The position numbers and the translations under genes are program-made. This document shows, piece by piece, positions 4,715 through 18,787 of a DNA stretch of 64,000 bases. The stretch is from Acidimicrobiia bacterium (GTDB lineage: Bacteria > Actinomycetota > Acidimicrobiia > Spongiisociales > ZC4RG35), in contig JANQRA010000022.1 in the NCBI GenBank assembly GCA_028284765.1, forward strand, positions 1-64,000. The letters run 5' to 3'. The notes under the pieces are model-generated. The model was not told where the DNA came from. It saw only the letters and a list, made by a program, of their open reading frames with translations, and searched no databases. Positions within the stretch are counted from its first letter, which is position 1. Every line of letters begins with the position of its first letter.

Positions 4715-5092
4715 ATGTCCACTGTGCTGGTTGTAGCTGACGCCTCATGGGTCACCAATGAAGTCCGATCCGCACTGACACTCGGCACATGGCAGATCGA
4801 GGAGCTCTCGGAGCCACGGGCCATCGTGGAGCGGCTGGAGAAGTCGAAGGTCGAATGCGTCGTGGTCGACATGCAAGTTGGCTCAAAGGGCGGCATGGCC
4901 ATAATCCGGTCCATCCGCCAGGCGACTGATCCACTGGAGAGACCACGCACCGTTCTCCTTCTGGACCGCTCGGCAGACCGTTTCCTGGCAGGTCGGGCAG
5001 GGGCCGATGCCTCGGTCCTCAAACCAATCAACGCCGCACAATTGCGCGTTGCGATCGACCCACCCACCTCTGCCTCCGACGAAGAGGAGTAG
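4715..5092 (+). CDS. Single-domain receiver-like protein
   Basis: 125 residues forming one CheY-like fold with no output domain. The putative phospho-acceptor is Asp 52 (VVVDMQ), with a conserved Lys-Pro near 103-104 (VLKP). The acidic pair normally found after beta-1 is reduced to a single Asp (VVADAS), so metal binding and phosphorylation may be impaired. The start is ATG 4715 (MSTVLVVADAS); longer in-frame starts would run into the divergent NfeD-like gene. No histidine kinase is adjacent. Ends in an acidic tail (SDEEE). Confidence 0.7.
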   Translation: MSTVLVVADASWVTNEVRSALTLGTWQIEELSEPRAIVERLEKSKVECVVVDMQVGSKGGMAIIRSIRQATDPLERPRTVLLLDRSADRFLAGRAGADASVLKPINAAQLRVAIDPPTSASDEEE

Positions 5093-5119
5093 GCCTCCTA
5101 CCGTCGGTAACCTTCTGGT

Positions 5120-5458
5120 ATGCCACGGACCGCGGCGTGGATCCTCCTGATCGCAGCGACTGCCTTCGCCTACACCCTGGCCTTCACCCCGTTTGAGCAC
5201 ACCACCGACCGCTATCGGTCCAACGACGAGGGAGGGCTCGATCGAGTCAAGATCGAATGCCCGTCGCCGGTTTCGGTGCTGTTCTTTGACGAAGACACCG
5301 ACTCAGGGAGAGATGCCGGTTCTTGTGAGCTCCCGGCTCGGGGTCATCTGATCGAGTCCGTGCTCGTCTTCGGGGTCGGTCTTCTCTTCGCTTGGAAGCC
5401 CATCATCAGAGCCAGGCCAACTCCGATCGGACCCATTTCGGACAAGCTCGACATATAG
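5120..5458 (+). CDS. Small two-helix membrane protein, unknown function
   Basis: 112 residues. Hydrophobic helices at about 5-22 and 79-93 flank an extracytoplasmic-looking loop that contains two cysteines (IECP and GSCEL), which could form a disulfide. I recognise no family. It lies 27 bases after the receiver gene and 51 bases before the large membrane protein on the same strand, so co-transcription is possible. The GC-rich third codon positions support it as a real gene. Confidence 0.6.
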   Translation: MPRTAAWILLIAATAFAYTLAFTPFEHTTDRYRSNDEGGLDRVKIECPSPVSVLFFDEDTDSGRDAGSCELPARGHLIESVLVFGVGLLFAWKPIIRARPTPIGPISDKLDI

Positions 5459-5509
5459 ACGAACCTAGGCTCAGCCGAGTCATGAGAATCGGATGGAGCG
5501 TTTAGTCGA

Positions 5510-7924
5510 GTGAGCGACGTGGAAAGCCGATTCTCTCTAGCTCGCAAGCTCACCAGCCGTTTCCGGATTCCTGCGGCGTCCTACTTCGTGTTCATGGGCG
5601 ACGAGGGCCGGGTACGCCGACCCCGCGACGTCATCCTCGTTGTCCTCGGGGGGCTGCTGACGCTCTCAACGGTCTTTGCCGTCGATCGCGCCCCGGAGTG
5701 GGCCGTGGCCCTGGTTGAACTGATCGCCGCCAGCCCCGACTGGGTGATCGACCTGTTCCGAATCGGCTACCTGATGAGCCTCGTCTATGTCTTGACGCTG
5801 ACAGCTCTGCTTGTCTCTGGCCGGGGCGCAAACGTCGGGCGCACTCGGGACGTTCTCCTCGTTCTCGGCGGTGTGGCAGCGCTCGCAATAGTGCTGTCCT
5901 TCCTGATCAACTCGAGCTGGCCGTATTTCTTTCCTGAAATCGGGCTGTCCGAGGCCGTTCCGCGTTTCCCGGTCCTTCGAGTCGCTTTGGTCAGTGGGCT
6001 CCTCGTGGTTGCGACCCCGTATGTGACAAAGCCGCTGCGACGCCTCGGTTGGTCAGCAATCGCTTTGACGTTCATAGCCGCGATCGCGCTGGGATACGGC
6101 ACTCCGTTCCACGTTGTCGGTTCTCTTGGCGTGGGTATCGCCGTGGCAGGAACGGTGATGCTCCTATTCGGAACGCCTCGAGGCTATCCCTCGCCGGAGG
6201 TGGTGTCTGCCGGTCTGGAAGCTTTGGGTGTACCCAACAATGGCCTCTCCCCCACAGCCGATCAGATCTGGGGGTTGGTTCGGTTCGCCGCCGAGGACAA
6301 GACCGGCAATCACATCGACGTCAAGGTCCATGGCCGCGACTCGTTCGACTCTCAACTGGCCGCCAAGCTGTGGCGAACGCTCATGTACCGAGAGGTCGGG
6401 AGGACTGTCAGCTACAGCCGCGGTCAGGCTGTCGAACGCGAAGCGCTGGTGTCTTTGCTCGCAGCTCGAGCGGGAGTCAACGTGCCCGAGCTGGCTGCCG
6501 TCGGCAGTGCATCGTCCGAGATCTCTCTCATCGCTTTCACCGGGTCGGGCATACCTTTCAGCCAACTCGATGCCACCGAACTGAGCGACGCACTCCTGCG
6601 CAAGGCCTGGAAAGAGATCGACACCCTCCACGGGTCATACATAGCCCACGGTGGACTCAGCTGTGACACCGTCAAAGCCGACGCAGGCTCCGTTGCCATC
6701 ACCGACTTCGACCTCGCCACCCTCTCCGCCGAAGAGGACCTGATAGCGGCGGACATCGTCGGGTTCATGTTCTCGACAGCCACAGTCGTTGGCGTCGAAC
6801 GGGCCGTATCTGCCGCTGTCGACGAGTTGGGGAAGGACGCAGTGATAGCCGCCATGCCCTACCTGCAGCTCCCTGCAATTGCCTCTCGAGTGCGCAAGAC
6901 GACCGACAAGCCCAAGGTGTTGATCGAAGAGTTGAGGGAAGAGTTGCTGACGGTCACGGAGACCGAACCGCCGGAGCCAGTCGAGATCCGACGAATCACA
7001 GTCAGGAGCCTGCTCCTGCCGGCGATGGTCTTGCTTCTCGGCTGGGCCCTGATTCCGGCTCTGACTCAGATCAACTACGCCGAGATCTGGGAAGTCCTGC
7101 AAGAGGCGGACTGGTGGCTGGTGGGAGTCGCCTTTCTCCTCGGCCACATTCAATACCTCCCTCAGGCGACGGCAGTCATGTTCGCCGTCCCGGCCAAACT
7201 CCAGTTCGGTCCGTTGCTCGCTTTGCAGGCTGCAAGTCAGTTCATAACTCTCGCAATCCCCAGCTCCGCCGGCCGGGTAGCGATGAACGCGGCGTTCCTG
7301 CACAAGTTCGGAGTTCCAGTGACGGTGGCAATCGCCCAGGGCGCGATCGATGGATTCAGTGGGTTCCTCGTCCAGGCCGTAATCCTCATTGCGGTGCTGC
7401 TGACTGGAGAGGTCGATCTGGGCCTCGAAGTCGACCCGTCGACGGTGCCTTGGCTGGTCCTTCTTGGCATCGTCGCACTACTGATTGTGGTGGTCGTGAC
7501 GGTGATCCTGACCGTGGAGTCGGTCCGAAGCCGGGTTGTTCCCATCCTCAAGGACGCGTGGGGCGCCTTGTCGGCCGTCCTCAAGGAGCCGAGCCGGGCC
7601 TTCGGACTGCTCACCAGCAACTTCATCTACTGGAACGTGCTTGGACTCACCTTGTGGTTCCTCACGTCGGCTGTGGGTGTGGATCTGAGCTACAACCTCG
7701 CCTTGTTCGTGGCCGCAGGAACCAGCTTGTTCGCAGGGTTCATGCCTATTCCGGGAGGGATAGGTGTGGCAGAAGCCACCATGACAGCGCTACTCGTCGC
7801 ATTCGGCCTCGAGCAGTCCGTGGCCTTCGCTGTGACGATGGTCTACCGCGTCCTGACCTTCTACCTGCCTGCGTTCGAGGGTTTCTTCACAACCCGTTGG
7901 CTGGAGAAGAACGGATACATCTAG
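5510..7924 (+). CDS. Membrane protein: kinase-like domain fused to lysylphosphatidylglycerol-synthase-type transmembrane domain
   Basis: 804 residues starting at GTG 5510. About six N-terminal helices (residues 40-225) are followed by a soluble segment (about 235-480) resembling a RIO/ABC1-like kinase fold: an IDVKVHGRD strand, a GGLSCDTVKA loop and an ITDFDLA segment that could be the metal-binding DFD. The C-terminal 300 residues contain seven or eight helices of the LPG_synthase_TM/UPF0104 type (MprF flippase half), including SAGRVAMNAAF and PIPGGIGVAEA. The MprF synthase domain itself is absent. Known relatives move or modify lipids; the actual substrate is unknown. The kinase-like portion has an unclear glycine loop, so catalytic activity is uncertain. 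Confidence 0.75.
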   Translation: MSDVESRFSLARKLTSRFRIPAASYFVFMGDEGRVRRPRDVILVVLGGLLTLSTVFAVDRAPEWAVALVELIAASPDWVIDLFRIGYLMSLVYVLTLTALLVSGRGANVGRTRDVLLVLGGVAALAIVLSFLINSSWPYFFPEIGLSEAVPRFPVLRVALVSGLLVVATPYVTKPLRRLGWSAIALTFIAAIALGYGTPFHVVGSLGVGIAVAGTVMLLFGTPRGYPSPEVVSAGLEALGVPNNGLSPTADQIWGLVRFAAEDKTGNHIDVKVHGRDSFDSQLAAKLWRTLMYREVGRTVSYSRGQAVEREALVSLLAARAGVNVPELAAVGSASSEISLIAFTGSGIPFSQLDATELSDALLRKAWKEIDTLHGSYIAHGGLSCDTVKADAGSVAITDFDLATLSAEEDLIAADIVGFMFSTATVVGVERAVSAAVDELGKDAVIAAMPYLQLPAIASRVRKTTDKPKVLIEELREELLTVTETEPPEPVEIRRITVRSLLLPAMVLLLGWALIPALTQINYAEIWEVLQEADWWLVGVAFLLGHIQYLPQATAVMFAVPAKLQFGPLLALQAASQFITLAIPSSAGRVAMNAAFLHKFGVPVTVAIAQGAIDGFSGFLVQAVILIAVLLTGEVDLGLEVDPSTVPWLVLLGIVALLIVVVVTVILTVESVRSRVVPILKDAWGALSAVLKEPSRAFGLLTSNFIYWNVLGLTLWFLTSAVGVDLSYNLALFVAAGTSLFAGFMPIPGGIGVAEATMTALLVAFGLEQSVAFAVTMVYRVLTFYLPAFEGFFTTRWLEKNGYI

Positions 7925-7939: not shown

Positions 7940-8434
7940 TCAGGCGAGTGACTCGATGTAGTCGACCAGGTCGTTGATCTCTTCTTCCGTGAGCTTTTCC
8001 TCGTAGTCGGTCGGCATCACTGCGTCGAAGCCTTCGACTATCTCAAACGCCGGATCCACGATTGATCGAATCAGATAGTCCTCATCGGCAAACACGACGT
8101 CGCCCGTGTCCATGGTTCGGTCCGTCTCGAATATCCCTTGCCAGGTTGGACCGGCCAGCGTGGAGCCGTCGATGGAATGACACCCCACACAACCTTGGTC
8201 CAACGCGACTGTTGCACCTGGGAGTTGGTCCGGGCTCTCTCCGCCGCTTCCGGCGGAAGCCTGAACACCAATCGAGTTGGCGATTCCGACCATTGTGAGC
8301 CCACCCACCAGAAGCACGGCGACGCCCAGGGCAAGCCCAACCACGCCAAAACTTGCCTTCAGGATGCGGTCGACACGCTGTGTGTCTTCCGTCTCGTCGA
8401 CATCGTTGGCGGGGTCGTAGATCATTTGGTTCAT
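7940..8434 (-). CDS. Membrane-anchored mono-heme cytochrome c
   Basis: 164 residues from ATG 8434, which follows GGGAGGAG; an ATG three codons downstream (8425) is an alternative with a longer spacer. One helix at about 27-52 anchors a periplasm-facing class I cytochrome c domain: heme motif CVGCH (Cys 82, Cys 85, His 86) and a likely distal Met 140 (AVMPTDY). The C-terminal segment (SIVDP... DYEEKLTEEEI) is closely similar to the end of the fusion protein encoded at 10237-12387. Last gene of the respiratory cluster; it probably carries electrons to the CuA centre of the ba3-like oxidase. Convergent with the kinase-like membrane protein gene. Confidence 0.9.
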   Translation of the reverse strand: MNQMIYDPANDVDETEDTQRVDRILKASFGVVGLALGVAVLLVGGLTMVGIANSIGVQASAGSGGESPDQLPGATVALDQGCVGCHSIDGSTLAGPTWQGIFETDRTMDTGDVVFADEDYLIRSIVDPAFEIVEGFDAVMPTDYEEKLTEEEINDLVDYIESLA

Positions 8435-8502
8435 TCTCCTCCCTGGCGGACCATCAGACCTGAGCACAAATACCATTCCCAGGGCCGAAAGTCCTTATGC
8501 CA

Positions 8503-9147
8503 TCAGCTCTCCAGAAGCGCAGTCAAGTCGGCGGCCAGATCGGAGGCGGTAACTCCCGGCTGGAAGGTCAACCGCAACGAGCCCGCAGGATCGATCGCGA
8601 ACAAAGAGGCGGTGTGGGCTACGTCGTAGAGGCCCTCATCGTCAGGCTCGGTGTAGTCGAAGAACACCCCATACTGGCTTGCCACCTCTCTCACGTTCTC
8701 GGTCTCACCCCAGACACCCCGGAACTCCGGGTTGAAACGCCGAACATAGGTCGCAAGAGAGTCGAGGTCGTCGCGTTCAGGATCAACGGTGACCATCAGC
8801 ATCTTCACCTTCTCCCCATCTTCACCCATTTCCGAAAGAGCACGATTGACAGAAGCCAACATTGTTGGACAGAGATCTGGGCAGTAAAGGAAACCGAAGT
8901 ACACCAACACGACATCGCCCTGAAGTGCCGCAACATCGACCGACTCTTCGTTGTCGTAGATCAAACCTGTCATTGGAGCTGCCGGAAGATCGGACTGAAT
9001 GACGGTCCCCGTGTAGATGTGAGGTCGGAACATCATCCCCGCGATCACTCCGAGGGCCAACGCCACGACCACGCCTACGGCGATCAACAGCACCGTGCGT
9101 CGCGGTTTCGGTTGAGTCGCTTGGGCCGTGTCGGTGTCGGGAATCAT
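8503..9147 (-). CDS. SCO1/SenC-family copper chaperone
   Basis: 214 residues from ATG 9147, whose first bases form an ATGA overlap with the stop of the preceding SCO-like gene; this decides the start over an upstream TTG. One N-terminal helix (about 17-40) anchors a thioredoxin-like domain. The copper ligands of the family are present: CPDLC (CxxxC) and the conserved His in VAHTAS. Known SCO proteins deliver copper to, or keep reduced, the CuA site of oxidase subunit II, and a CuA subunit is encoded 5 kb upstream on the same strand. Confidence 0.92.
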   Translation of the reverse strand: MIPDTDTAQATQPKPRRTVLLIAVGVVVALALGVIAGMMFRPHIYTGTVIQSDLPAAPMTGLIYDNEESVDVAALQGDVVLVYFGFLYCPDLCPTMLASVNRALSEMGEDGEKVKMLMVTVDPERDDLDSLATYVRRFNPEFRGVWGETENVREVASQYGVFFDYTEPDDEGLYDVAHTASLFAIDPAGSLRLTFQPGVTASDLAADLTALLES

Positions 9148-9773
9148 GGATAGCAAAGGAAAACGTGGGCAGCTTCGTACAGCAAAGCTGTGTTGCCGTC
9201 TGAGTTGCGAATCTCTTCGAACAGCAGACCCATGTGTCTGGTGATTCGGTCTGCGTCCGACGCAATCGTCGAATACGTGTACTCGCCGCGAATGAGGCCT
9301 TCGCCATCGACAATCACAAAGGTTCTGTCGAACTCCACGGACCCTGTCGGTAGGACATCAAAATAGACCCTGAACCCGTCGCCGACCGTCGACCTGAGCT
9401 GCTCTTCGTCCGCCGTCACCCATCGCCATCGTTCTCCGTCTGCTCCTGCCGCGAGTGCTGAAGCACTCAGCTCGTCAGAGCTTGGTGAGTCGAGGGCCAC
9501 CGTGACCATGTTGAACTCGGGGTCACCCTCACCAGCTTGGGTATCCAATCGCGTTTGAACGTCGCGCATCGTCTGGTTGATGTCGTCGCACTCAGGTCCA
9601 CAGTCCGACGGCATGAAGGCATAGAGAGTGACCGCGCCACGGCCGTCCTCTGACGTCAGGGCCGCCCCAGCCTGATCGGACAAAGAGAAACCCGGAGCAA
9701 CTCTGAGTCGCGGAAGCACCTGGACCGGTTCAAAGATTGCGAAGGCCATCACTGCAGCGACGAGGCCAGCCAC
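9144..9773 (-). CDS. SCO-like thioredoxin-fold protein lacking the copper-ligand histidine
   Basis: The thioredoxin-like domain carries a CxxxC pair (SDCGPEC), but the position equivalent to the SCO histidine reads FDRTF, so His is replaced by Arg. It may act in thiol reduction rather than copper donation (inference). The N-terminal helix (WVVAGLVAAVMAFAIF) is preceded by basic residues. The start is uncertain: GTG 9773 avoids the divergent lipoprotein gene, but TTG 9893 would include the basic residues. The frame even stays open to an ATG at 10244 that overlaps the fusion-gene stop. I reject the long form because codon bias in 9828-10214 favours the other strand. Stop overlaps the next SCO gene (ATGA). 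Confidence 0.75.
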   Translation of the reverse strand: MAGLVAAVMAFAIFEPVQVLPRLRVAPGFSLSDQAGAALTSEDGRGAVTLYAFMPSDCGPECDDINQTMRDVQTRLDTQAGEGDPEFNMVTVALDSPSSDELSASALAAGADGERWRWVTADEEQLRSTVGDGFRVYFDVLPTGSVEFDRTFVIVDGEGLIRGEYTYSTIASDADRITRHMGLLFEEIRNSDGNTALLYEAAHVFLCYP

Positions 9774-9827
9774 GACCCAGACCAGTGCTTTGAGCCAACG
9801 GTACGACTTGCCCGTAGAATCGGTTAC

Positions 9828-10214
9828 GTGAAGCGGACCCTCCCCTTGATACTCCTCCTCACCGCGTGCTTCCCTACCGCCGAGCTCCAGCAAGGTCCCG
9901 GGATCGTTGGCAGCTACGTCGTGAACGGCGTCGACCCCATCGGCACCGAGTACACCGGTCGGGTCGAGATCCGACCCGGAGACGGCGTCGACCTTGTCGA
10001 CATCGAATGGATCGTCACCGGAGCGATTCTCCAGGGGAACGGCGAGATCAACGGCGACGAGCTCGCCGTCGTCTGGTCGTCGATAAACGCTCCTGCCGGA
10101 CCCACGAGGGGAACTGCCACGTACACCATCATGAGCGACGGTCGCATTGTTGGCACCAGAACCGTCGAAGGGTTCGACGAAGTCGGGACCGAGACCATCT
10201 TCCCGGATCCTTGA
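9828..10214 (+). CDS. Small secreted lipoprotein, unknown function
   Basis: 128 residues starting at GTG 9828. The first 15 residues form a lipoprotein signal with lipobox LLTAC. The mature part is beta-rich with repeated Gly-Asp motifs (VGSYVVNGVDPIGTEYTG, GNGEINGDELAV), which suggests a lipocalin- or FIVAR-like barrel, but I recognise no family. Third codon positions are overwhelmingly G or C, whereas the opposite strand, which is also open, shows weaker bias; hence this strand is the coding one. It is the only plus-strand gene inside the minus-strand respiratory cluster. Confidence 0.75.
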   Translation: MKRTLPLILLLTACFPTAELQQGPGIVGSYVVNGVDPIGTEYTGRVEIRPGDGVDLVDIEWIVTGAILQGNGEINGDELAVVWSSINAPAGPTRGTATYTIMSDGRIVGTRTVEGFDEVGTETIFPDP

Positions 10215-10236
10215 TTGTCCCTTCGAATCGCTCATC

Positions 10237-12387
10237 TCATCCATCCAACGTCAATAGATACTGCACGAGAGCCTCGATCTCGTCATCGCTGAGCCTCTCT
10301 TCGTAGTCAGACAACATCTGACCTGCCGGATATCCATCCACAACATAGGCGTCGGGATCGACAATCGACTCAAGTAGATACTCCGCTGCGTCCAGGCCAG
10401 GAACCCTCTCCGCAGCCAGCAGTGCCACTGACGAGAGGTTGGGACCCACCAGTTCGACCCCCGGTGTCACTGAGTGACATACATCACATCCGGCAACCTG
10501 GGACTCAAACACCCGGCGCCCGGTCTCCGCGTCGGCCACGGTGGCGTCGGATATTTCGACCACCAACCGCTGACCTTGGCCGATGGCCACGTCGTCATCG
10601 ACCAACGCATTCGAGTCGCCACCCTCGATCAAGGACACCACAACACGGCTGATTCCTGGCTCGACCGGGGCCTCGATGACCGCCGAAGCAAAGCCGCCGT
10701 CTCCCACGACGTGGGTCGTTTCAACGCCGTCGATGCTGACCAGCACAGAAGTTGGAGTGCCCGGAGCGCCAGACGTTTGTTCTAGACCCTCGACCTCGGC
10801 TCCCGGCTCATGGTGCACGACTATCAGCACTGAGGCATCTGGCCTGGAAACGGCGAACTGCCAGGTCGTTACCACGGCGACAACAAGTACCGAAAGCAGG
10901 ACCACCGCGCCAGCCCGAACCCAGCGACGGCGTTCCGAAGGTATGTCCGAGGGATCGGCAGATAGATGTGTCCCCGGTCGCGTGAGAGCTTCCTCGAGGG
11001 CGGTGGGAGCGACGAAATCCCTGGTGGTAGCAGGGGCAAACCTGTTTGCCACTCGGGGTCGGCGCTCGCCTGTCAGACGCTCCTCAGCCAGTCGGTTGCC
11101 GACACCGTACGAACAGTCACCCGGAGGGCAGCCCACGATCTGCACGGAGCTAGCACCATCCGACACCATCCGACCGATCGTCGTTGGGGCTATCACGCCC
11201 ACGCAGCGAACCGACAGAAGAGTCTTGCCGTCCCCAACCTCGACCGAGCCGTGCCGCTGGCAAGCGACGACGAAGCTCTGGCCGGCGGCGTCGAGATCCT
11301 TCGGAACCGTCGCCCCCTCCAGCTCGATCGCGTCAAACACGCACGAGCCAACACAGATACCGCAGGCGACACACAGATCCGCATCAAGCACAGCTATCGA
11401 CCGACCAGCGACCTCTTCCATCCGCAACGCCTTGTACGGACAGTCGACGACGCACAGCTCACACCCGACACACGCATCCTCGTCGATCTCCACGACTTTG
11501 GTCTTCGAACGGTCGAGCAACCAGGGCAAGGAGGCGAAGAAGCCAGTCACCAAGACGAAGGCGCCGAACACGACGAGACCTCGGAAGCTCTCGAAACCGG
11601 GCAGCAGGAACAGGAAGAACGGGTCGACCGGCACCGACTCGACGATGCGAGCCGGATCGGCTGCGCGCAGCAGCTCTGCGGGAAAGGCGATCGAGACGAC
11701 AACGAGTGACCCCAGCATGAGACCGGTCCACAGGCGGGGTGGAAGCCACGGCAGATTGGAACGCCGCAGGTGCCGCCAGAGGAAATAGCCGATCAGGACG
11801 GTGACCAACACGTGTCCTAGCCAGATGAGAAGTATGACCTGCCAGCCGGACCCGTCGCTGGTGAGGACGGAGGTCACAACCCTCGAACCGACGGCGGAAA
11901 CACCAACAGTCGACGCGATGGCCTCGTTGATGAGCTGGGCGCGTTGGTCCCACAGCATCCAGTAGCCGGTGACCCCTGCAGCAAGAACCGAAACCAGTGC
12001 AGCCCACCCGGTGAGCCACGCCCATCGGCGCGGCCCGTTGAACCGGTGTGCAACGAAGATCCGCCATGCGTGAATCACCACCGTCACTACCAGTGCGGCC
12101 GAGGCGTATCTGTGCAACGACCGCATCAGCCTCTGAATCGGATGATCCGTCAGCTTCTCTATCGCACGCGGCGTCGCCTCGAAACCGAATTCGAAGAAGA
12201 AGGTGAGGTAGATCCCGGTCAACACCACGATGATGAACAGGACCGACGAGATCGTCCCCGCGTGCGGCAGCGGGTTGAGTCTTCCTGAGCCGACAATCCG
12301 CCGGACCGGCTTCTCAGCTACGAAATTGACCCGATCAAGTCGCGCGAGCGGGTCAGCTTCGGGTTTGCTCCCGTCCTCGTTGGACAT
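10237..12387 (-). CDS. Fusion electron-transfer protein: cytochrome b + 2[4Fe-4S] + MvhD-like + cytochrome c
   Basis: 716 residues, four modules in order. (1) Cytochrome b N-terminal domain, residues about 35-290: His 92/His 106 and His 192/His 206, each pair 14 apart on helices 2 and 4, the spacing of diheme b of bc1/b6f. (2) Ferredoxin domain: Cys 306/309/312/316 and 339/342/345/349. (3) MvhD-like domain: Cys 376, 395, 420, 425 (GCPPGDC), as in the delta subunit of heterodisulfide-reductase-linked hydrogenases, where it holds [2Fe-2S]. (4) A helix near 490-510, a beta-rich spacer and cytochrome c (CDVCH, Cys 634/637, His 638; Met 691). The ATG lies six bases after oxidase subunit I. No Rieske gene is present. 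I infer a quinol- or ferredoxin-to-oxidase conduit; direction of flow is unknown. Confidence 0.9.
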   Translation of the reverse strand: MSNEDGSKPEADPLARLDRVNFVAEKPVRRIVGSGRLNPLPHAGTISSVLFIIVVLTGIYLTFFFEFGFEATPRAIEKLTDHPIQRLMRSLHRYASAALVVTVVIHAWRIFVAHRFNGPRRWAWLTGWAALVSVLAAGVTGYWMLWDQRAQLINEAIASTVGVSAVGSRVVTSVLTSDGSGWQVILLIWLGHVLVTVLIGYFLWRHLRRSNLPWLPPRLWTGLMLGSLVVVSIAFPAELLRAADPARIVESVPVDPFFLFLLPGFESFRGLVVFGAFVLVTGFFASLPWLLDRSKTKVVEIDEDACVGCELCVVDCPYKALRMEEVAGRSIAVLDADLCVACGICVGSCVFDAIELEGATVPKDLDAAGQSFVVACQRHGSVEVGDGKTLLSVRCVGVIAPTTIGRMVSDGASSVQIVGCPPGDCSYGVGNRLAEERLTGERRPRVANRFAPATTRDFVAPTALEEALTRPGTHLSADPSDIPSERRRWVRAGAVVLLSVLVVAVVTTWQFAVSRPDASVLIVVHHEPGAEVEGLEQTSGAPGTPTSVLVSIDGVETTHVVGDGGFASAVIEAPVEPGISRVVVSLIEGGDSNALVDDDVAIGQGQRLVVEISDATVADAETGRRVFESQVAGCDVCHSVTPGVELVGPNLSSVALLAAERVPGLDAAEYLLESIVDPDAYVVDGYPAGQMLSDYEERLSDDEIEALVQYLLTLDG

Positions 12388-12393
12388 GCCCGG

Positions 12394-14058
12394 CTAGGGC
12401 GAGATACCCGGTGAGTTCAGTTGGATATTGCCGATCTGGTCGATCAGTTGAGGCCCATACGCTATGAGTATCAGCGCGATGGTTGCGATCATCCACGGCT
12501 TGAAGTTGTCGAGCCAAGCCGGTGTCAGCTGCGGGTCTCTGATCGACTCGGCGACTGGGATGTCAGGCACATCTTCCGGGTCCGCCTTCGGGCCCCGCAT
12601 CGTCTTCCACATGAGATAGACGTACATGAGGACCGAGATGAAGAGGATCGTCCCGCCAATGCTCACCCGAAGCAGGTGACCCGACCACTCCTCTGGAACG
12701 TATGGGGCTTGGCCCAAGGGTGTCCGTCTCGGGGCGCCCAGCAGACCAAGTACGTGCATTGCGTTGGAGAAGATGAGCATCCCAACGAACCACACCCATG
12801 CTTGAGCGAGAGCCAGTTTCGGACTGTGCAGCTTCTTGCCCGTCAGGTGCGGGACCAACCAGAAGCTGATACCCATGAACGAGAGGGTCACTGCGCTTGC
12901 CACCGTCAGGTGGAAGTGTCCGGGCACCCAGGTCGTGTTGTGGATGACGGTGTTGATGTTGTACGAGGCGTTGACGATGCCGCCGATTCCACCGAAGAAG
13001 AAGAGGATTCCGGCAAGCAGCTGGGCGGTCACTGAAGCGTCACGCCACGGCAGGGCCTTCATCCACCCGAACACACCTTTGCCGCCGTTCTGCTTCGCCG
13101 AGTACTCGAGAGATGCGATAACGGTGAACGCAGTCAGCATCGATGGGAAGAAGACGCCATAGGTGAGTCCTGCGTGGATGAACTTCCAACCGCTAGGCAC
13201 ACCCGGATCGACGAACTGGTGATGGAACCCGACGGGGATGGAGAGGAGCAGGAACAGCCAGAAGGCCAGTCGTGCCAGTGAGTCGCTGAAGAGCTTGCCG
13301 CCCGCCTGCTTGGGCAGCATCCCGTACCAAGAGAGGTATGCAGGAAGGAGCCAGAAGTACACCAACGGGTGCCCTGTGAACCAGAAGTAAGTCCGAGCCA
13401 GCTGAGGGTCGGTGGCTTCGATGATCCCTAGTGACCACGGGAGAAGCATCGTCAGGATCAGAACGGCAACACCCAGTGTCGCGATCTGCCACATCACAGT
13501 GTTGATCACGCCGGCGAAGGCGATGAACGGGGACCGAACGCCCGGGTTGTCTTTGCGCCAGGCGCGGAAGGTGAGGATGAATCCCCACCCCTCGATCCAG
13601 CTTCCCACGACGACGAGAGTCAGGCCGAGGTAGAACGCCCAGCTTGCTTTGAGCGGTGGATAGAAGGTGAAGAGCACCGTGGCTTCGCCGATCAGCAGCG
13701 GCACGGCGGTAGTGAAGACACCAACGACCATCGTCCAGAAACCGAAGCGGTTCAGCCGCGGTGTCGCCAAGGAGCGGCCGAGACCTTTGACGGTGGTCAG
13801 GTAGGTGAACCCGACGATGAAGAATGTGGTCCATACCAACGCATTCAGAACACCGTGGATCGTGAGCCCTTGGTAGTAGTTCTCCAACAGTGGAGCGATG
13901 TACTGATAGAGGTCCAGACCCGAGAATTCGAGGGCCTGAAGTGGGCCGAAGAGACTCCCTACGAGTAGTGAGGCGATCGCCACAAAGATGTGCCAGCCGA
14001 TGAACTTCTTGTCCTCTGGCGTGACCTGATAGCCAGTTCTCTCCGCGGAGATGGTCAT
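12394..14058 (-). CDS. B-family (ba3-type) heme-copper oxidase subunit I
   Basis: 554 residues, about 13 transmembrane helices. Visible ligands: His 68 (TIHG) and His 383 for the low-spin heme, His 381 for the high-spin heme (VPGHFH), and His 230, 279, 280 for CuB. His 230 and Tyr 234 (HPLVY) would form the His-Tyr cross-link of active oxidases. The HPLVY form and the overall pattern match the Thermus ba3/CbaA branch rather than mitochondrial-type aa3, so K-channel-only proton pumping and high oxygen affinity are expected from the family. The ATG overlaps the subunit II stop (ATGA). Confidence 0.95.
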   Translation of the reverse strand: MTISAERTGYQVTPEDKKFIGWHIFVAIASLLVGSLFGPLQALEFSGLDLYQYIAPLLENYYQGLTIHGVLNALVWTTFFIVGFTYLTTVKGLGRSLATPRLNRFGFWTMVVGVFTTAVPLLIGEATVLFTFYPPLKASWAFYLGLTLVVVGSWIEGWGFILTFRAWRKDNPGVRSPFIAFAGVINTVMWQIATLGVAVLILTMLLPWSLGIIEATDPQLARTYFWFTGHPLVYFWLLPAYLSWYGMLPKQAGGKLFSDSLARLAFWLFLLLSIPVGFHHQFVDPGVPSGWKFIHAGLTYGVFFPSMLTAFTVIASLEYSAKQNGGKGVFGWMKALPWRDASVTAQLLAGILFFFGGIGGIVNASYNINTVIHNTTWVPGHFHLTVASAVTLSFMGISFWLVPHLTGKKLHSPKLALAQAWVWFVGMLIFSNAMHVLGLLGAPRRTPLGQAPYVPEEWSGHLLRVSIGGTILFISVLMYVYLMWKTMRGPKADPEDVPDIPVAESIRDPQLTPAWLDNFKPWMIATIALILIAYGPQLIDQIGNIQLNSPGISP

Positions 14059-14594
14059 TCGTCGGATCCTCCCTCTTCCTCTTCTTCGAGCTCTTCGACA
14101 ACCTGCACCGTCCCGAACATCGCGGCGTGACCCAGACCGCAGTACTCGGTGCAGATATACGGGAACTCACCAATCTCCTCGAAGGTGTAGGTCAGCTTCG
14201 AGACCTGACCGGGCACGATCTGCATGTTGATGTTTGTGTTCTGGATCTTGAATCCGTGTTGGACGTCCGGTGCCGTTACGTAGATAGTGACCGTCGAGCC
14301 GACCGGAACCACAAGCTCGCGGGGCTGGAACAGGAATTGCCGGCTGATCACATAGGCCTCGTACTCACCTGGAGCTATCTCACGCAACCCAGGGTTGGCA
14401 AACGGCCCGGAGTCTTCGAGGGTTTGAGGGTCGACCCGAACTTCGGCGTCGGGAACCTGGATGCCCAAGGCAAACCCTGCTGCAGTGACCAAACCGAAGA
14501 ACAGGACAAGGATGAAGATCGACACGATCATCCAGTTGCGCTCGTAGGGGTCAACCCCCATCGACTCTTTGGTCTGTGTCGGTTTGTCCGTCAC
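14055..14594 (-). CDS. Heme-copper oxidase subunit II, CuA-containing
   Basis: 179 residues from GTG 14594, preceded by AGAGGG; this start also overlaps the stop of the upstream small gene (GTGA). One N-terminal helix (about 21-44) anchors a cupredoxin domain. The complete CuA ligand set is present: His 113, Cys 148, Glu 150 (backbone), Cys 152, His 156 and Met 159 in CTEYCGLGHAAM. The single helix is the ba3-type layout; A-family subunit II usually has two. An acidic tail (EEEEEGGSDE) ends the protein. It accepts electrons from a c-type cytochrome, here plausibly the fusion protein's heme c or the one at 7940-8434. Confidence 0.94.
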   Translation of the reverse strand: MTDKPTQTKESMGVDPYERNWMIVSIFILVLFFGLVTAAGFALGIQVPDAEVRVDPQTLEDSGPFANPGLREIAPGEYEAYVISRQFLFQPRELVVPVGSTVTIYVTAPDVQHGFKIQNTNINMQIVPGQVSKLTYTFEEIGEFPYICTEYCGLGHAAMFGTVQVVEELEEEEEGGSDE

Positions 14595-14746
14595 GTAGTC
14601 ATCCCTCTGCTCACCAGGATGAGATATACGGAGCCCCAAAGGACGAGCAGGAGAACCACAAATATCGCCAACAGTGTGGCGGTGCCCACAGGTTTGAAGT
14701 GCTCAGGTTCTGCTGCCTCAGATTCAGATGGGCGGCCGTCAGTCAC
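14591..14746 (-). CDS. One-helix small subunit of ba3-type oxidase (subunit IIa-like)
   Basis: 51 residues from GTG 14746 with a strong AGAGGAG Shine-Dalgarno. A charged N-terminus (TDGRPSESEAAEPEHFKP) is followed by one long hydrophobic helix (about 25-46). Its last bases overlap the GTG of subunit II. The position at the head of the operon and the single-helix layout fit the 34-residue subunit IIa (CbaD) of Thermus ba3 oxidase; sequence similarity cannot be judged at this size. First gene of the operon, so the promoter should lie in 14747-14953. Confidence 0.65.
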   Translation of the reverse strand: MTDGRPSESEAAEPEHFKPVGTATLLAIFVVLLLVLWGSVYLILVSRGMTT

Positions 14747-14953
14747 AGTTCTCCTCTCGAACTGGGTCCATGTTGGCCGCGACGCTACCCACCTGAATAG
14801 GGACTTTCGTCCCCAAAGGTGAAAAGAACTGAATACTTCGACGGATCGGGATGTCCGTTGGTCACTTCCGGGGCCGCAGGTAAGACCCATGTGACCTCGT
14901 CTGTGACCTCGTCGAATCTGTTGAACGCCTTCGTCCGCAAGGAGTAAAGTCAA
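14747..14953. promoter_or_regulatory. Divergent promoter region between oxidase operon and SARP regulator
   Basis: About 207 bases separate two divergent starts. The plus-strand gene has AAGGAG nine bases before its GTG (14954). I see no unambiguous -35/-10 pair and no clear long palindrome. The geometry suggests that the giant regulator could control the oxidase operon, but nothing in the sequence proves this. Confidence 0.4.
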
Positions 14954-17900
14954 GTGGTGGAACCTCTACGGATCCACCTGCTGGGTGGCTTTTTGTTGGA
15001 ACGCGGCGGCATCACCTTGCCTCCGATAGCCTCCCTGCGCGGCCGCTCTCTTCTCGCCTACCTGGCCACCAACAAGGGTCGCCCCATCCAAAGAGATCTC
15101 CTGGCCGGAATGTTCTGGCCTGACAGCCCCGAGGGCCGTTCTCGTCGCAGGCTGTCGCACACCCTGTGGCAGATCCAGGACGTTGTGAACACGCCCGCCA
15201 GGTCGTACATCCGATCGAATAGCCAAACGATCGAGTTGGACCCGACATCGCCGCTTTGGCTGGACGTCGAAGAATTCGACGAGAACTTCATCGCCACATC
15301 ATCGCCTAATGAGCCCGATCGAGGGACCAAGCTCCGCAGGTGCGTTGACCTATATCGAGGAGACTTCATGGCGGGCCACTTCGATGATTGGGTCATGGTC
15401 GAGCAAGACATCTACCGCCAGCGCTTCTTAGCTGCGCTCCAACGTCTGATTGGAGTTACGAAGGCGACCGGGTCATACGACGAGGCCCTGGACTACGCCA
15501 AAAGGCTCACTCACCACGATGCGTTAAACGAGGAGGCGCACCGTGAGGTGATGCGACTCAACGTTCTCCTGGGCCGAACGTCACAAGCCGTCGAACAGTA
15601 CGAGCGGGTGCGATCGGTGCTCGAAGAGGAGATGGGAGCGGAGCCCTCTCCCGCGACGCACGACATCTTCCAAAAGATCCTGCGCCAGCGGAGATCCGGA
15701 ATCCATCCACCGCTGACTTCCAAGCCTGCGATGCTGCTGGGGGGCAGCTCCGAAGCGCCTTTCGTGGGCCGAGACGATGAGCGCCGACTGGTGGTTGACG
15801 CAATGGAGAGGGTCCTTGGCGGCAGTGGTGGTGTCGTGCTGATGGAGGGCGAGCCAGGTGTTGGCAAGACGCGTCTTGCGTTTGAGCTGGCCGAAGATGC
15901 GCGCTGGCGGGGTTTTGAGGTTTCCTGGGGCGCCTGTACCGACGGGGCGGTTCGGCCGTTTGCGCCGCTCGTTGAGGTGCTGGGATCTCTGAACCCATTG
16001 AGAGTGGAGCAGTTGGCCGAAGTGATCGAGCCTGTGTGGCTTGGAGAAGCTGGCCGCATCGCTCAAATCACCGACCACGAAAACAGTGAACCAGAGACCA
16101 CGCTCAGGCCCTCTGAAGGTTCAGACCGAATGATCGAGGCTCTGGTGCAGACACTGGAGGCACTCGGCCGGATATCGCCACATCTCATATTCATCGACGA
16201 CGTTCACTGGGCAGACCGGGACACACTCACCGTCTTGCGTCAGGCAAGCACCCGTCTCGCGGGTTCCCGCGTGCTGCTCGTACTGATCTATAGAAGCGAA
16301 GAAGCGCGAGGGGATCCCTACGTATGGGACACGCTTCGGGATCTCGACAAAGGCTCGGGGCTGGGCAGGGCGGTCCTGTCGCCACTATCAGTCTTCGAGC
16401 TGGAGAACATGGTTCGAAGGATCCTGGGCACCACGCGTTTGGAGCCGTCGGTCTCGGCCAGCCTCCACCGCCAAACCGGAGGCAACGTCCTGTTCACGAT
16501 CGAGACGTTGCTGGCAATGCGAGACGAAGGCCTATTCGAGACCGAAACGGATCCGGTATCGGTGCTGGCGACGCATATAGAAGACCGCCAGATTCCTGTC
16601 GCTCCCCGTGTCAGATCGATTATCGAATCAAGGCTGGCGTTGCTGAAAGACGAAGTGACTTCGATATTCGAGCTCGTTGCTCTCGTTGGAAACAGAATCA
16701 CGATCGAGCTGCTCGAGACAGTCACCAAGCTTGACCGATCCGAAGTGCTCCATGCCGTGGACGAACTCCTCTATCGAGGACTGGTGAGAGACGAAGGCGA
16801 CGGTCGATATAGGGTCGCCCACGATCAAATCAGACAAGTCGTGGTCGAAGTCATCGACCCCGACCGCCGGATCGTGCTCCACAAACGAGTTGCCTCGGCG
16901 CTCATCGCCTTGGACCCCGATCATGTAGAAGCAATAGGGCATCACTTCAGAGCCGGCGGCGAGGAAGCCCAGGCCATCCACTATCTCCATGCCGCCGGGA
17001 GGCGTGCGGTCGAACTGAACGCCTTCGCCACGGCACGTCACCATCTCCGAGCCGCCACAGCCACTGCGGATGGCATCGATCTTGACGAGGCGCAGCTGTT
17101 CGAGATGTTCGGAAGCCTCTTCGATGTTCTGGACGTGCTGGGTCGCCGCGACGAACAGCATGACGTGCTCGGCCGCCTCCACCAGCTCGCCCACTCGCTA
17201 CCCAATCGCCGAAGTGAGGTAGCTCGAAGGCGGGCCTGGCTCTTGGCGCAAGAAGCCTCGTTCGCTCAAGCCGAGGAGAGTGCCGAACTCTCTGTCCGTC
17301 TAGACGAGAAAGACCAACCGACTGAGTCCTTGTCGAGATCACTGGTGATACTGGGAACAATTCGACGGTGGTCAGGCAGACCGCTCGAAGCAATAGAGCC
17401 TTTGCATCGAGCAGCGACGATCAGCAAGAGCGACGAAGAGCGAGCAGAAGCTCTGACAGAGCTTGCGAGCACCCTCGTGGAGGTTCAACAGGTCGCCGAA
17501 GCTCTCGAGCATCTGAGTGATGCAAGCGCCATTTTCATCGAAACCGAGGATCTGAGAGGCCAGGCAGAAGTCGCTGGGATCGAAGCTCGAGCTTTGCGTA
17601 CCTCCGGTGATCGCGATGGCGCCGTCGAGAGGTACGCGTCGGCAATCGCGCTGTGTCGACGTATCGGCTATCGGCACGGGGAGGGCATGAACCTCACGAA
17701 CCTCTCGAATCTCCATCAGCTAGTGGGAGACGTGGCCCAATCACTGGCTGGCTACGACAGGGCCGCAAGCATCTTCTCCGACATGGGCAACACCCGAGGT
17801 GAGGCGATGGTTCTCGTCAACTCCGCGTCAGCTCGACACAACGTTCTCGGTGAGGATGACCGGGCACGGAAAGATGCCCTGAGAGCGATGACCCACTTCG

Positions 17901-18787
17901 ACGCCATCGGAGACAAAGCCAGACACGCACAGTGTCTGGAAATCGTCGCGGGAACTGAAGCGCGAGCTGGTCATCGAGAAGACGCCCGCCGGTTGCTCAG
18001 AGAGAGTCTCCATGAGCTCGAAGGAGTTGGCAACACATCGCTCGAGGTGCAACACCTCCGTTCAAAGGCCCTGCTGTGGGCGGAAGACGGCGACCTGGAA
18101 CGAGCAATCGGAGTGTTGGACGATGCCGAAGCCCTGAGCGAAAAGGCAGGCTTGGGTGACCTGTCGATCGACCTCATGTCCATCCGGGGCTGGGTCGAGT
18201 TCCGGCGCGGCAATCCAGAATCAGGCTACGACCTCGCGGCAACAGCTGCCCTGAACGTCTCGCCCGGCGTTGGCCGACCGTATCTCATCCATCACAGGCT
18301 GAGCGTGATCGCTGAGGCTGAGAATCTCACCGAAGTGGCGCGTGCGGCGGCGATCGAAGCTGACGCCCTATTGAGGACCGCCCTGCGAGGGCTTGACCCG
18401 GACACCGTGGAAGCTGCCATCGCAAGAGTGCCGGAGCACTTGGCCATCGCTGAACGGGCCCGGCGCTTCGCCCCCAAGAAGGTACGTGTTCAGCTCCCGT
18501 CGAGCGACGCACCCACCGGAAGAGCTCTCGAGACCGATGAGCTCGTGCCAGTCGTTTGGACAGTGACTGACCCTGAGGACGATCAGGTTTCAGACGCACA
18601 AGAGGTTCGCAAGCTCCGGGTGCTCCGATTGCTGGCGGAGGCGGAGGAACAGGGTGCGACGCCATCCGTTCGCCAACTTGCCGATGCGTTGTGTGTGAGT
18701 GAAACCACCATCAGGCGAGATATCAACGCCCTGCGCGACGAAGGGCATTCAGCGCATACAAGGGGCCACCGACAAACGGGCAGCTGA
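14954..18787 (+). CDS. SARP/BTAD regulator with AAA ATPase, TPR repeats and C-terminal HTH
   Basis: 1277 residues. The N-terminus (1-95) is an OmpR-like winged helix of SARP type, followed by the bacterial transcriptional activator domain (about 100-245). A STAND/AAA ATPase comes next: Walker A GEPGVGKT at 299-306 and Walker B LIFIDD at 411-416, then WHD-like and arm segments. TPR-like helical repeats fill about 680-1150. The last 60 residues form a DeoR-like helix-turn-helix (RQLADALCVSETTIRRD). Two DNA-binding domains at opposite ends are unusual. Family members integrate signals by nucleotide-dependent oligomerisation. GTG start with AAGGAG; divergent from the oxidase operon. Confidence 0.88.
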   Translation: MVEPLRIHLLGGFLLERGGITLPPIASLRGRSLLAYLATNKGRPIQRDLLAGMFWPDSPEGRSRRRLSHTLWQIQDVVNTPARSYIRSNSQTIELDPTSPLWLDVEEFDENFIATSSPNEPDRGTKLRRCVDLYRGDFMAGHFDDWVMVEQDIYRQRFLAALQRLIGVTKATGSYDEALDYAKRLTHHDALNEEAHREVMRLNVLLGRTSQAVEQYERVRSVLEEEMGAEPSPATHDIFQKILRQRRSGIHPPLTSKPAMLLGGSSEAPFVGRDDERRLVVDAMERVLGGSGGVVLMEGEPGVGKTRLAFELAEDARWRGFEVSWGACTDGAVRPFAPLVEVLGSLNPLRVEQLAEVIEPVWLGEAGRIAQITDHENSEPETTLRPSEGSDRMIEALVQTLEALGRISPHLIFIDDVHWADRDTLTVLRQASTRLAGSRVLLVLIYRSEEARGDPYVWDTLRDLDKGSGLGRAVLSPLSVFELENMVRRILGTTRLEPSVSASLHRQTGGNVLFTIETLLAMRDEGLFETETDPVSVLATHIEDRQIPVAPRVRSIIESRLALLKDEVTSIFELVALVGNRITIELLETVTKLDRSEVLHAVDELLYRGLVRDEGDGRYRVAHDQIRQVVVEVIDPDRRIVLHKRVASALIALDPDHVEAIGHHFRAGGEEAQAIHYLHAAGRRAVELNAFATARHHLRAATATADGIDLDEAQLFEMFGSLFDVLDVLGRRDEQHDVLGRLHQLAHSLPNRRSEVARRRAWLLAQEASFAQAEESAELSVRLDEKDQPTESLSRSLVILGTIRRWSGRPLEAIEPLHRAATISKSDEERAEALTELASTLVEVQQVAEALEHLSDASAIFIETEDLRGQAEVAGIEARALRTSGDRDGAVERYASAIALCRRIGYRHGEGMNLTNLSNLHQLVGDVAQSLAGYDRAASIFSDMGNTRGEAMVLVNSASARHNVLGEDDRARKDALRAMTHFDAIGDKARHAQCLEIVAGTEARAGHREDARRLLRESLHELEGVGNTSLEVQHLRSKALLWAEDGDLERAIGVLDDAEALSEKAGLGDLSIDLMSIRGWVEFRRGNPESGYDLAATAALNVSPGVGRPYLIHHRLSVIAEAENLTEVARAAAIEADALLRTALRGLDPDTVEAAIARVPEHLAIAERARRFAPKKVRVQLPSSDAPTGRALETDELVPVVWTVTDPEDDQVSDAQEVRKLRVLRLLAEAEEQGATPSVRQLADALCVSETTIRRDINALRDEGHSAHTRGHRQTGS

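Follow-up and report, generated by a model that had tools for sequence, protein, structure and literature searches.

A predicted fusion of bc1-type cytochrome b, ferredoxin, MvhD and cytochrome c modules in a ba3-type oxidase operon

MvhD domains belong to electron-bifurcating complexes, and the known structures of bc1 complexes provide a topology rule by which the cytoplasmic and outer sides of a related cytochrome b can be set. In CcoG, a membrane part is followed by two [4Fe-4S] clusters and then, at the C-terminus, by an Ig-like domain in the periplasm. This cupric reductase has its gene behind the cbb3 genes and has been described as a membrane protein with two [4Fe-4S] clusters, having iron-sulfur and copper sites and no haems (PMC7558416). 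Another precedent comes from anammox complexes with a gene set of a GltD-like NAD(P)H module, b6, subunit IV and Rieske protein, which are proposed to make NAD(P)H by bifurcation (PMC12954380). In this paper we analyse a single protein with modules comparable to those of several such systems. It is encoded behind a ba3-type oxidase in the window, by which we mean the whole stretch of 64,000 nucleotides that was studied.

Modules, predicted fold and operon

The fusion gene occupies positions 10237-12387 of the minus strand, which is also the strand of all modules and operon genes given below. Its product of 716 residues starts with a bc1-type cytochrome b of helices A-F (11506-12288, residues 34-294). 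This is followed by a ferredoxin domain for two [4Fe-4S] clusters (11317-11493, residues 299-357), an MvhD/FlpD domain (11068-11280, residues 370-440), a last transmembrane helix (10864-10932, residues 486-508), an Ig-like beta domain (10543-10860, residues 510-615, pLDDT mostly 73-89) and a cytochrome c domain (10240-10542). The Pfam matches are all above their curated cut-offs: Cytochrome_B at 42-207 (1e-10), Fer4_21 at 300-356, FlpD at 389-438 (6e-9; 36.5 against a cut-off of 22.3 bits) and Cytochrom_C at 621-714. The ligands named by the sequence-only reading are present as described, namely four His in the bc1-type spacing (92/106 and 192/206, paired as H92/H192 and H106/H206), eight ferredoxin Cys (C306/309/312/316 and C339/342/345/349), four MvhD-type Cys (C376/C395/C420/C425) and a CxxCH haem c site (C634xxC637H638), to which M691 can be added as the candidate axial Met. 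Our alignment has 25 rows with 27-62% identity, including 23 full-length homologues (34-62%) and one shorter distant paralogue (27%). Within the 23 full-length homologues every ligand is kept. The four His are invariant in all rows, as are D255 and His526 of the Ig-like domain. The Fe-S Cys are invariant too, except that C309 is replaced by Asp in the distant paralogue L032, from which the CxxCH cytochrome c is missing. This conservation and the order of the operon exclude a chance open reading frame or frame artefact.

The structure model built from the 25 rows (mean pLDDT 75, pTM 0.69) supersedes a preceding one from 13 rows (pLDDT 59), whose top Foldseek matches were MvhD chains. It shows the cytochrome b helices A-F with cd and ef helices, the ferredoxin, MvhD, the helix at 486-508, the Ig-like domain and cytochrome c. 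Helices E-F and the Ig-like domain between the last helix and cytochrome c were absent from the earlier interpretation. The model aligns to mycobacterial QcrB with a Z score of 20.1 (3.1 A over 254 residues, VIA-align). In many rows of VIA-align, fusion residues 34-513 are matched to bc1 residues ending at about 342-346, which we take to be the helix G region, and the last transmembrane helix is superposed near helix G. From the bc1 cytochrome b fold and the order of the helices we infer that the Fe-S modules would stand in for the F-G loop on the cytoplasmic side, with the Ig-like domain and cytochrome c placed outside.

The HdrA2 profile matches the ferredoxin and then the MvhD part, collinear with the HdrA2 C-terminus, so that the cytoplasmic half of the fusion looks, in its predicted domains, like an HdrA2 tail minus the flavin part. 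A profile search also matches the MvhD part to the MvhD chain 9sw2_D (E 7.5e-10). For the Ig-like domain, Foldseek returned fibronectin-type background matches only, and few rows cover it in VIA-align. The best NCBIfam match of the cytochrome b part is the b-type cytochrome ExtP (NF040969, 8e-20), at 71.5 bits against a cut-off of 290.

The fusion gene is part of a co-directional operon running from 14953 down to 7940 in the order IIa-like, COX2, COX1, fusion, SCOa, SCOb and cytochrome c. The assignment to a ba3-type oxidase, made earlier from the letters, holds up well. Subunit I (COX1, 12394-14058, Pfam) is nearest to the B-family, matching Thermus ba3 chains (1ehk/1xme) with E values of 1e-145 to 1e-148 where A-type enzymes reach 1e-18 at best, and subunit II (14055-14639, start codon uncertain, Pfam) contains the CuA motif CTEYCGLGHAAM. 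The spacing is likewise as given before, with COX1 ending at 12394 and the fusion six bases behind it; the fusion in turn overlaps the next gene by eight bases. The small IIa-like protein (14591-14953, start codon uncertain) reaches 20.0 bits with CoxIIa, just below the cut-off of 20.7, and its homologues sit upstream of COX2 in relatives. Behind the fusion lie two genes recognised by Pfam and as conserved neighbours, the SCO-like copper chaperone a with a CGPEC motif (9144-10244) and the SCO copper chaperone b with a CPDLC motif (8503-9156). The operon ends with a separate membrane-anchored cytochrome c (7940-8476, Pfam), which in the tree is divergent from the stand-alone cytochrome c of relatives. 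On either side of the operon, genes on the plus strand encode an LPG-synthase-like membrane protein (5510-7924, PF03706) and a long divergent protein (14954-18787) that, from reading its sequence, may be AfsR-type regulator-like. The window has no Rieske gene, as had been noticed before, and the Rieske motif is absent from all six frames.

Distribution and history of the fusion

A full-length homologue is found in 14 of 98 relatives, the genome of the window itself not counted. The fusion gene is present in 32 of the 395 genomes sampled from the class (a few of these being contig-edge fragments), all from one order and from five families, and in a phylum sample of 396 genomes the homologues are confined to that same order. 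There the full architecture is conserved next to a ba3-type subunit I on intact contigs, in agreement with the link to the oxidase that had been proposed. When named genomes were searched with the single fusion protein, the sole match was a ferredoxin stretch in Hakubella, and that contig stretch shows no such fusion. Phages gave no match to the fusion.

A COX1 with at least 63% identity occurs in 34 genomes, and the fusion in 29 of these, where all examined loci have it adjoining COX1. Another three fusions come from very short contigs, 3.6-5.2 kb in length. The fusion gene is accessory, since the five remaining close relatives keep the oxidase genes without it. COX1, cytochrome c, SCOa and SCOb are kept in order at four of the five fusion-less loci, and the fifth, in G039, is rearranged and without the downstream genes. 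The sequence-only reading had named absence of the fusion from close relatives with intact oxidase operons as evidence against itself, and such absence is seen in part: in these five, with 29 of the 34 carrying the gene. On the COX1 tree the presence and absence of the fusion needs at least four changes, on well-supported branches, which we read as losses because the clade of fused cytochrome c domains is old. The near-identical operons of G049 and G042 differ by the presence of the fusion in the former, which shows that its absence in this pair is recent.

The fused cytochrome c domains share ancestry with the stand-alone cytochrome c encoded in their own operons, and in the tree they group in one clade (100/99), with the stand-alone domains outside it; the row L033, labelled as stand-alone within the fused clade, comes from a truncated contig that retains a fusion's end. 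This single clade points to a single duplication and fusion event as their likely origin. The stand-alone gene is missing in five intact fusion operons (L020, L023, L024, L026 and L029) and present in four of four fusion-less operons with SCO genes. This suggests that the fused and stand-alone forms are interchangeable, with numbers too small for a firm test.

Two cousins of the fusion have no cytochrome c domain. A Defluviimonas plasmid carries COX2, COX1, cyoE and SCO followed by two adjacent genes, one for cytochrome b-ferredoxin-MvhD and one for the transmembrane helix with the Ig-like domain. The second locus of G041 (L032) has COX2, COX1, DsbD_2, a copper ATPase and a single gene for cytochrome b-ferredoxin-MvhD-helix-Ig. 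Since neither cousin has the cytochrome c and both have the Ig-like domain, the core is cytochrome b-ferredoxin-MvhD-helix-Ig. At least two distant lineages have this core beside heme-copper oxidases, and the addition of cytochrome c probably took place within the present order. An open reading frame of 1621 residues at L032 is not one giant fusion, its upstream part being a spurious open frame over the copper ATPase and DsbD_2 gene. The distant paralogue at this locus (4809-6809) has an Asp for the second Cys of its first ferredoxin cluster (CHGDGRC), as in Asp-ligated ferredoxins.

Electron conduit and competing explanations

The sequence-only reading proposed that the fusion either replaces the bc1 complex as a quinol:cytochrome c reductase or links an electron-rich soluble partner to the oxidase. 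A replacement would suit the bc1 fold and the fused cytochrome c, but as the sole such enzyme the fusion is contradicted by the same genome (G000, 98% complete). Its contig C1 has one complete operon of ferredoxin, b6, subunit IV, Rieske protein (CVHLGC...CPCHGS) and dihaem cytochrome c, in kind the qcrABC genes whose presence elsewhere in the genome that reading had named as evidence against itself. Among relatives, several also encode b6-IV-Rieske next to the fusion. In many relatives a divergent operon adjoins COX2-COX1-fusion, with genes for cytochrome c, a GltD-like FAD/Fe-S protein, b6, subunit IV, Rieske and a second cytochrome c. We consider the replacement of bc1 very improbable; the fusion acts beside a normal Rieske/cytochrome b complex. 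The link from a soluble partner stays viable, and is near to the explanation we find best.

The divergent cluster of cytochrome c, GltD-like FAD/4Fe-4S protein, b6, IV, Rieske and cytochrome c is seen beside the ba3 oxidase at L020 (3516-8366), L021, L022, L023, L024, L067, L068, L070, L073 and L074. These are the genes that make up the NAD(P)-reductase-type Rieske/cytochrome b complexes of Kuenenia, in this case in the surroundings of an oxidase. Although adjacent in many relatives, the GltD-like NAD(P)H protein is absent from the genome of the window. In that genome the b6-IV-Rieske-dihaem c operon (locus L019 on contig C1) opens with a two-cluster ferredoxin (8255-8704) that is similar to the Fe-S region at the C-terminus of the GltD-like protein, as though the flavin part had been lost from the complex and the Fe-S adaptor retained. 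Divergent to this operon there is a third, divergent COX1-family protein of 492 residues with two cytochrome c genes (L019, 4298-7543); a stronger COX1 match than this protein is on contig C6. In two relatives, nitrate reductase beta and gamma genes are found a few kb from the oxidase-fusion operon (L020, 16238-19001; L024, 14275-17281).

Our leading explanation, with a probability of roughly 0.45, is that the fusion is an accessory electron conduit dedicated to the ba3 oxidase, which would run across the membrane from a cytoplasmic Fe-S port (and/or quinol) to the oxidase and deliver to CuA. Its architecture would be a bc1-type cytochrome b with an F-G loop carrying the HdrA2-like tail (two [4Fe-4S] and an MvhD [2Fe-2S]-type cluster), ending in an Ig-like spacer and a c-type cytochrome. 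A soluble reductant would feed electrons into the Fe-S/MvhD port in the cytoplasm, and/or quinol would supply them to the b haems; they would cross the membrane via haems bH and bL and pass by way of the fused cytochrome c to the CuA site in subunit II, in parallel to the normal Rieske/cytochrome b complex. The ligands for all predicted redox centres are conserved, and the fused cytochrome c, as a homologue of the one encoded separately in the operon, speaks for delivery to CuA. The cofactor loading, the donor, the direction of flow and the role of CuA as acceptor are what we infer in this explanation. The operon has no gene for a dedicated cytoplasmic donor. The FlpD of the fusion is the only one in the genome, and no HdrA was found over the cut-off in the genome, where there are short Fe-S or flavin-fold stretches only. 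Because cousins without cytochrome c exist, the ancestral function may have been other than delivery to CuA. The assembly neighbours (SCO, CyoE, copper ATPase) also fit an assembly role, which we count against a conduit. A more far-reaching proposal, on balance unlikely, is that the fusion, as a single-chain relation of the bc1 cytochrome b that does without Rieske, connects the cytoplasmic MvhD/ferredoxin port with the O2 side (cytochrome c, CuA), so that the oxidase would either drain a low-potential cytoplasmic pool directly or drive the formation of low-potential reductant.

The main rival, possible though in our view doubtful, is an assembly reductase like CcoG/FixG, which would bring cytoplasmic or quinol electrons to the outer face and reduce Cu(II), SCO or CuA thiols, or c-haem in oxidase maturation. 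The order of membrane part, two [4Fe-4S] clusters and C-terminal Ig-like outer domain is comparable to CcoG, and assembly genes adjoin in all three contexts (two SCO genes here, CyoE and SCO in Defluviimonas, DsbD_2 and a copper P-type ATPase at L032). The invariant His526 in the outer domain and the lack of a FixG_C hit in the genome of the window also count for such a role. However, the fusion-less genomes lack FixG_C as well, giving no hint that it replaces the fusion, and a profile search found no FixG_C (PF11614) or other assembly-family match in the fusion protein, its Ig domain included. The fusion has ligands for two b haems and one c haem, unlike CcoG, and an assembly reductase would not need the cytochrome c tail. 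Moreover, the fusion has been lost repeatedly while COX1, and mostly SCO, stays.

A Rieske-free bifurcating quinol oxidase would instead oxidise quinol in the retained outer pocket, passing one electron to O2 by way of the tethered cytochrome c and driving the other uphill via bL and bH to the Fe-S/MvhD port, making low-potential reductant. The cytochrome b retains helices E-F, the cd motif GYWxxWDQ and, near the PEWY position, xVDPF with the invariant acid D255. The MvhD domain is of the kind found in electron-bifurcating complexes, and the GltD-like module that relatives encode with b6/IV/Rieske next door is part of the gene set of the anammox complexes, the nearest precedent. PEWY itself is not kept, though, and region 200-300 aligns with subunit IV in a collinear but weak manner (HMM probability 8%, E 0.004). 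With no Rieske protein belonging to the fusion and no known cytoplasmic acceptor, we regard bifurcation as improbable.

Comparison with known systems

We rate the fusion as a variant within the bc1-type cytochrome b, in a combination undescribed in the literature searched. No paper found there deals with MvhD domains attached to a cytochrome b or next to a heme-copper oxidase, absence there being no proof. The fusion brings together a terminal O2 reductase and the MvhD port known from the bifurcating complexes of anaerobes, two worlds so far apart. It is a compact natural case of a cytochrome b that, with no Rieske protein, is wired to Fe-S clusters in the cytoplasm. Sister operons with and without it, such as those of G049 and G042, offer a natural comparison of what this wire adds to a ba3 oxidase.

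With the cytochrome b of bc1 and b6f complexes (QcrB, PetB/PetD) the fusion shares helices A-F, a G-like helix, the four His in their spacing and the cd-loop motif. It differs by the Fe-S/MvhD insert in the F-G loop, the degenerate PEWY with D255 and the C-terminal cytochrome c, and its operon has no Rieske partner, the Rieske protein of the genome being in the separate b6/IV operon. It is also unlike ExtP, falling far below that family's cut-off and lying in another operon. Like the HdrA2 tail and MvhD (FlpD) of methanogens, it has a ferredoxin followed by MvhD with conserved cluster Cys, but it has no flavin domain, its genome has no HdrA and its setting is an aerobic oxidase operon. The likeness to the cupric reductase CcoG/FixG/RdxA lies in the membrane helices, the two [4Fe-4S] clusters, the Ig-like outer domain and a place behind oxidase genes, whereas the fusion has a cytochrome b for the haem-less helices, an extra MvhD and cytochrome c, and no FixG_C match. 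The Kuenenia-type Rieske/cytochrome b complexes with NAD(P) oxidoreductase consist of separate subunits with Rieske protein and flavin, whereas the fusion is one chain without either; what the two have in common is a cytochrome b coupled to a cytoplasmic Fe-S module and to outer c-haems.
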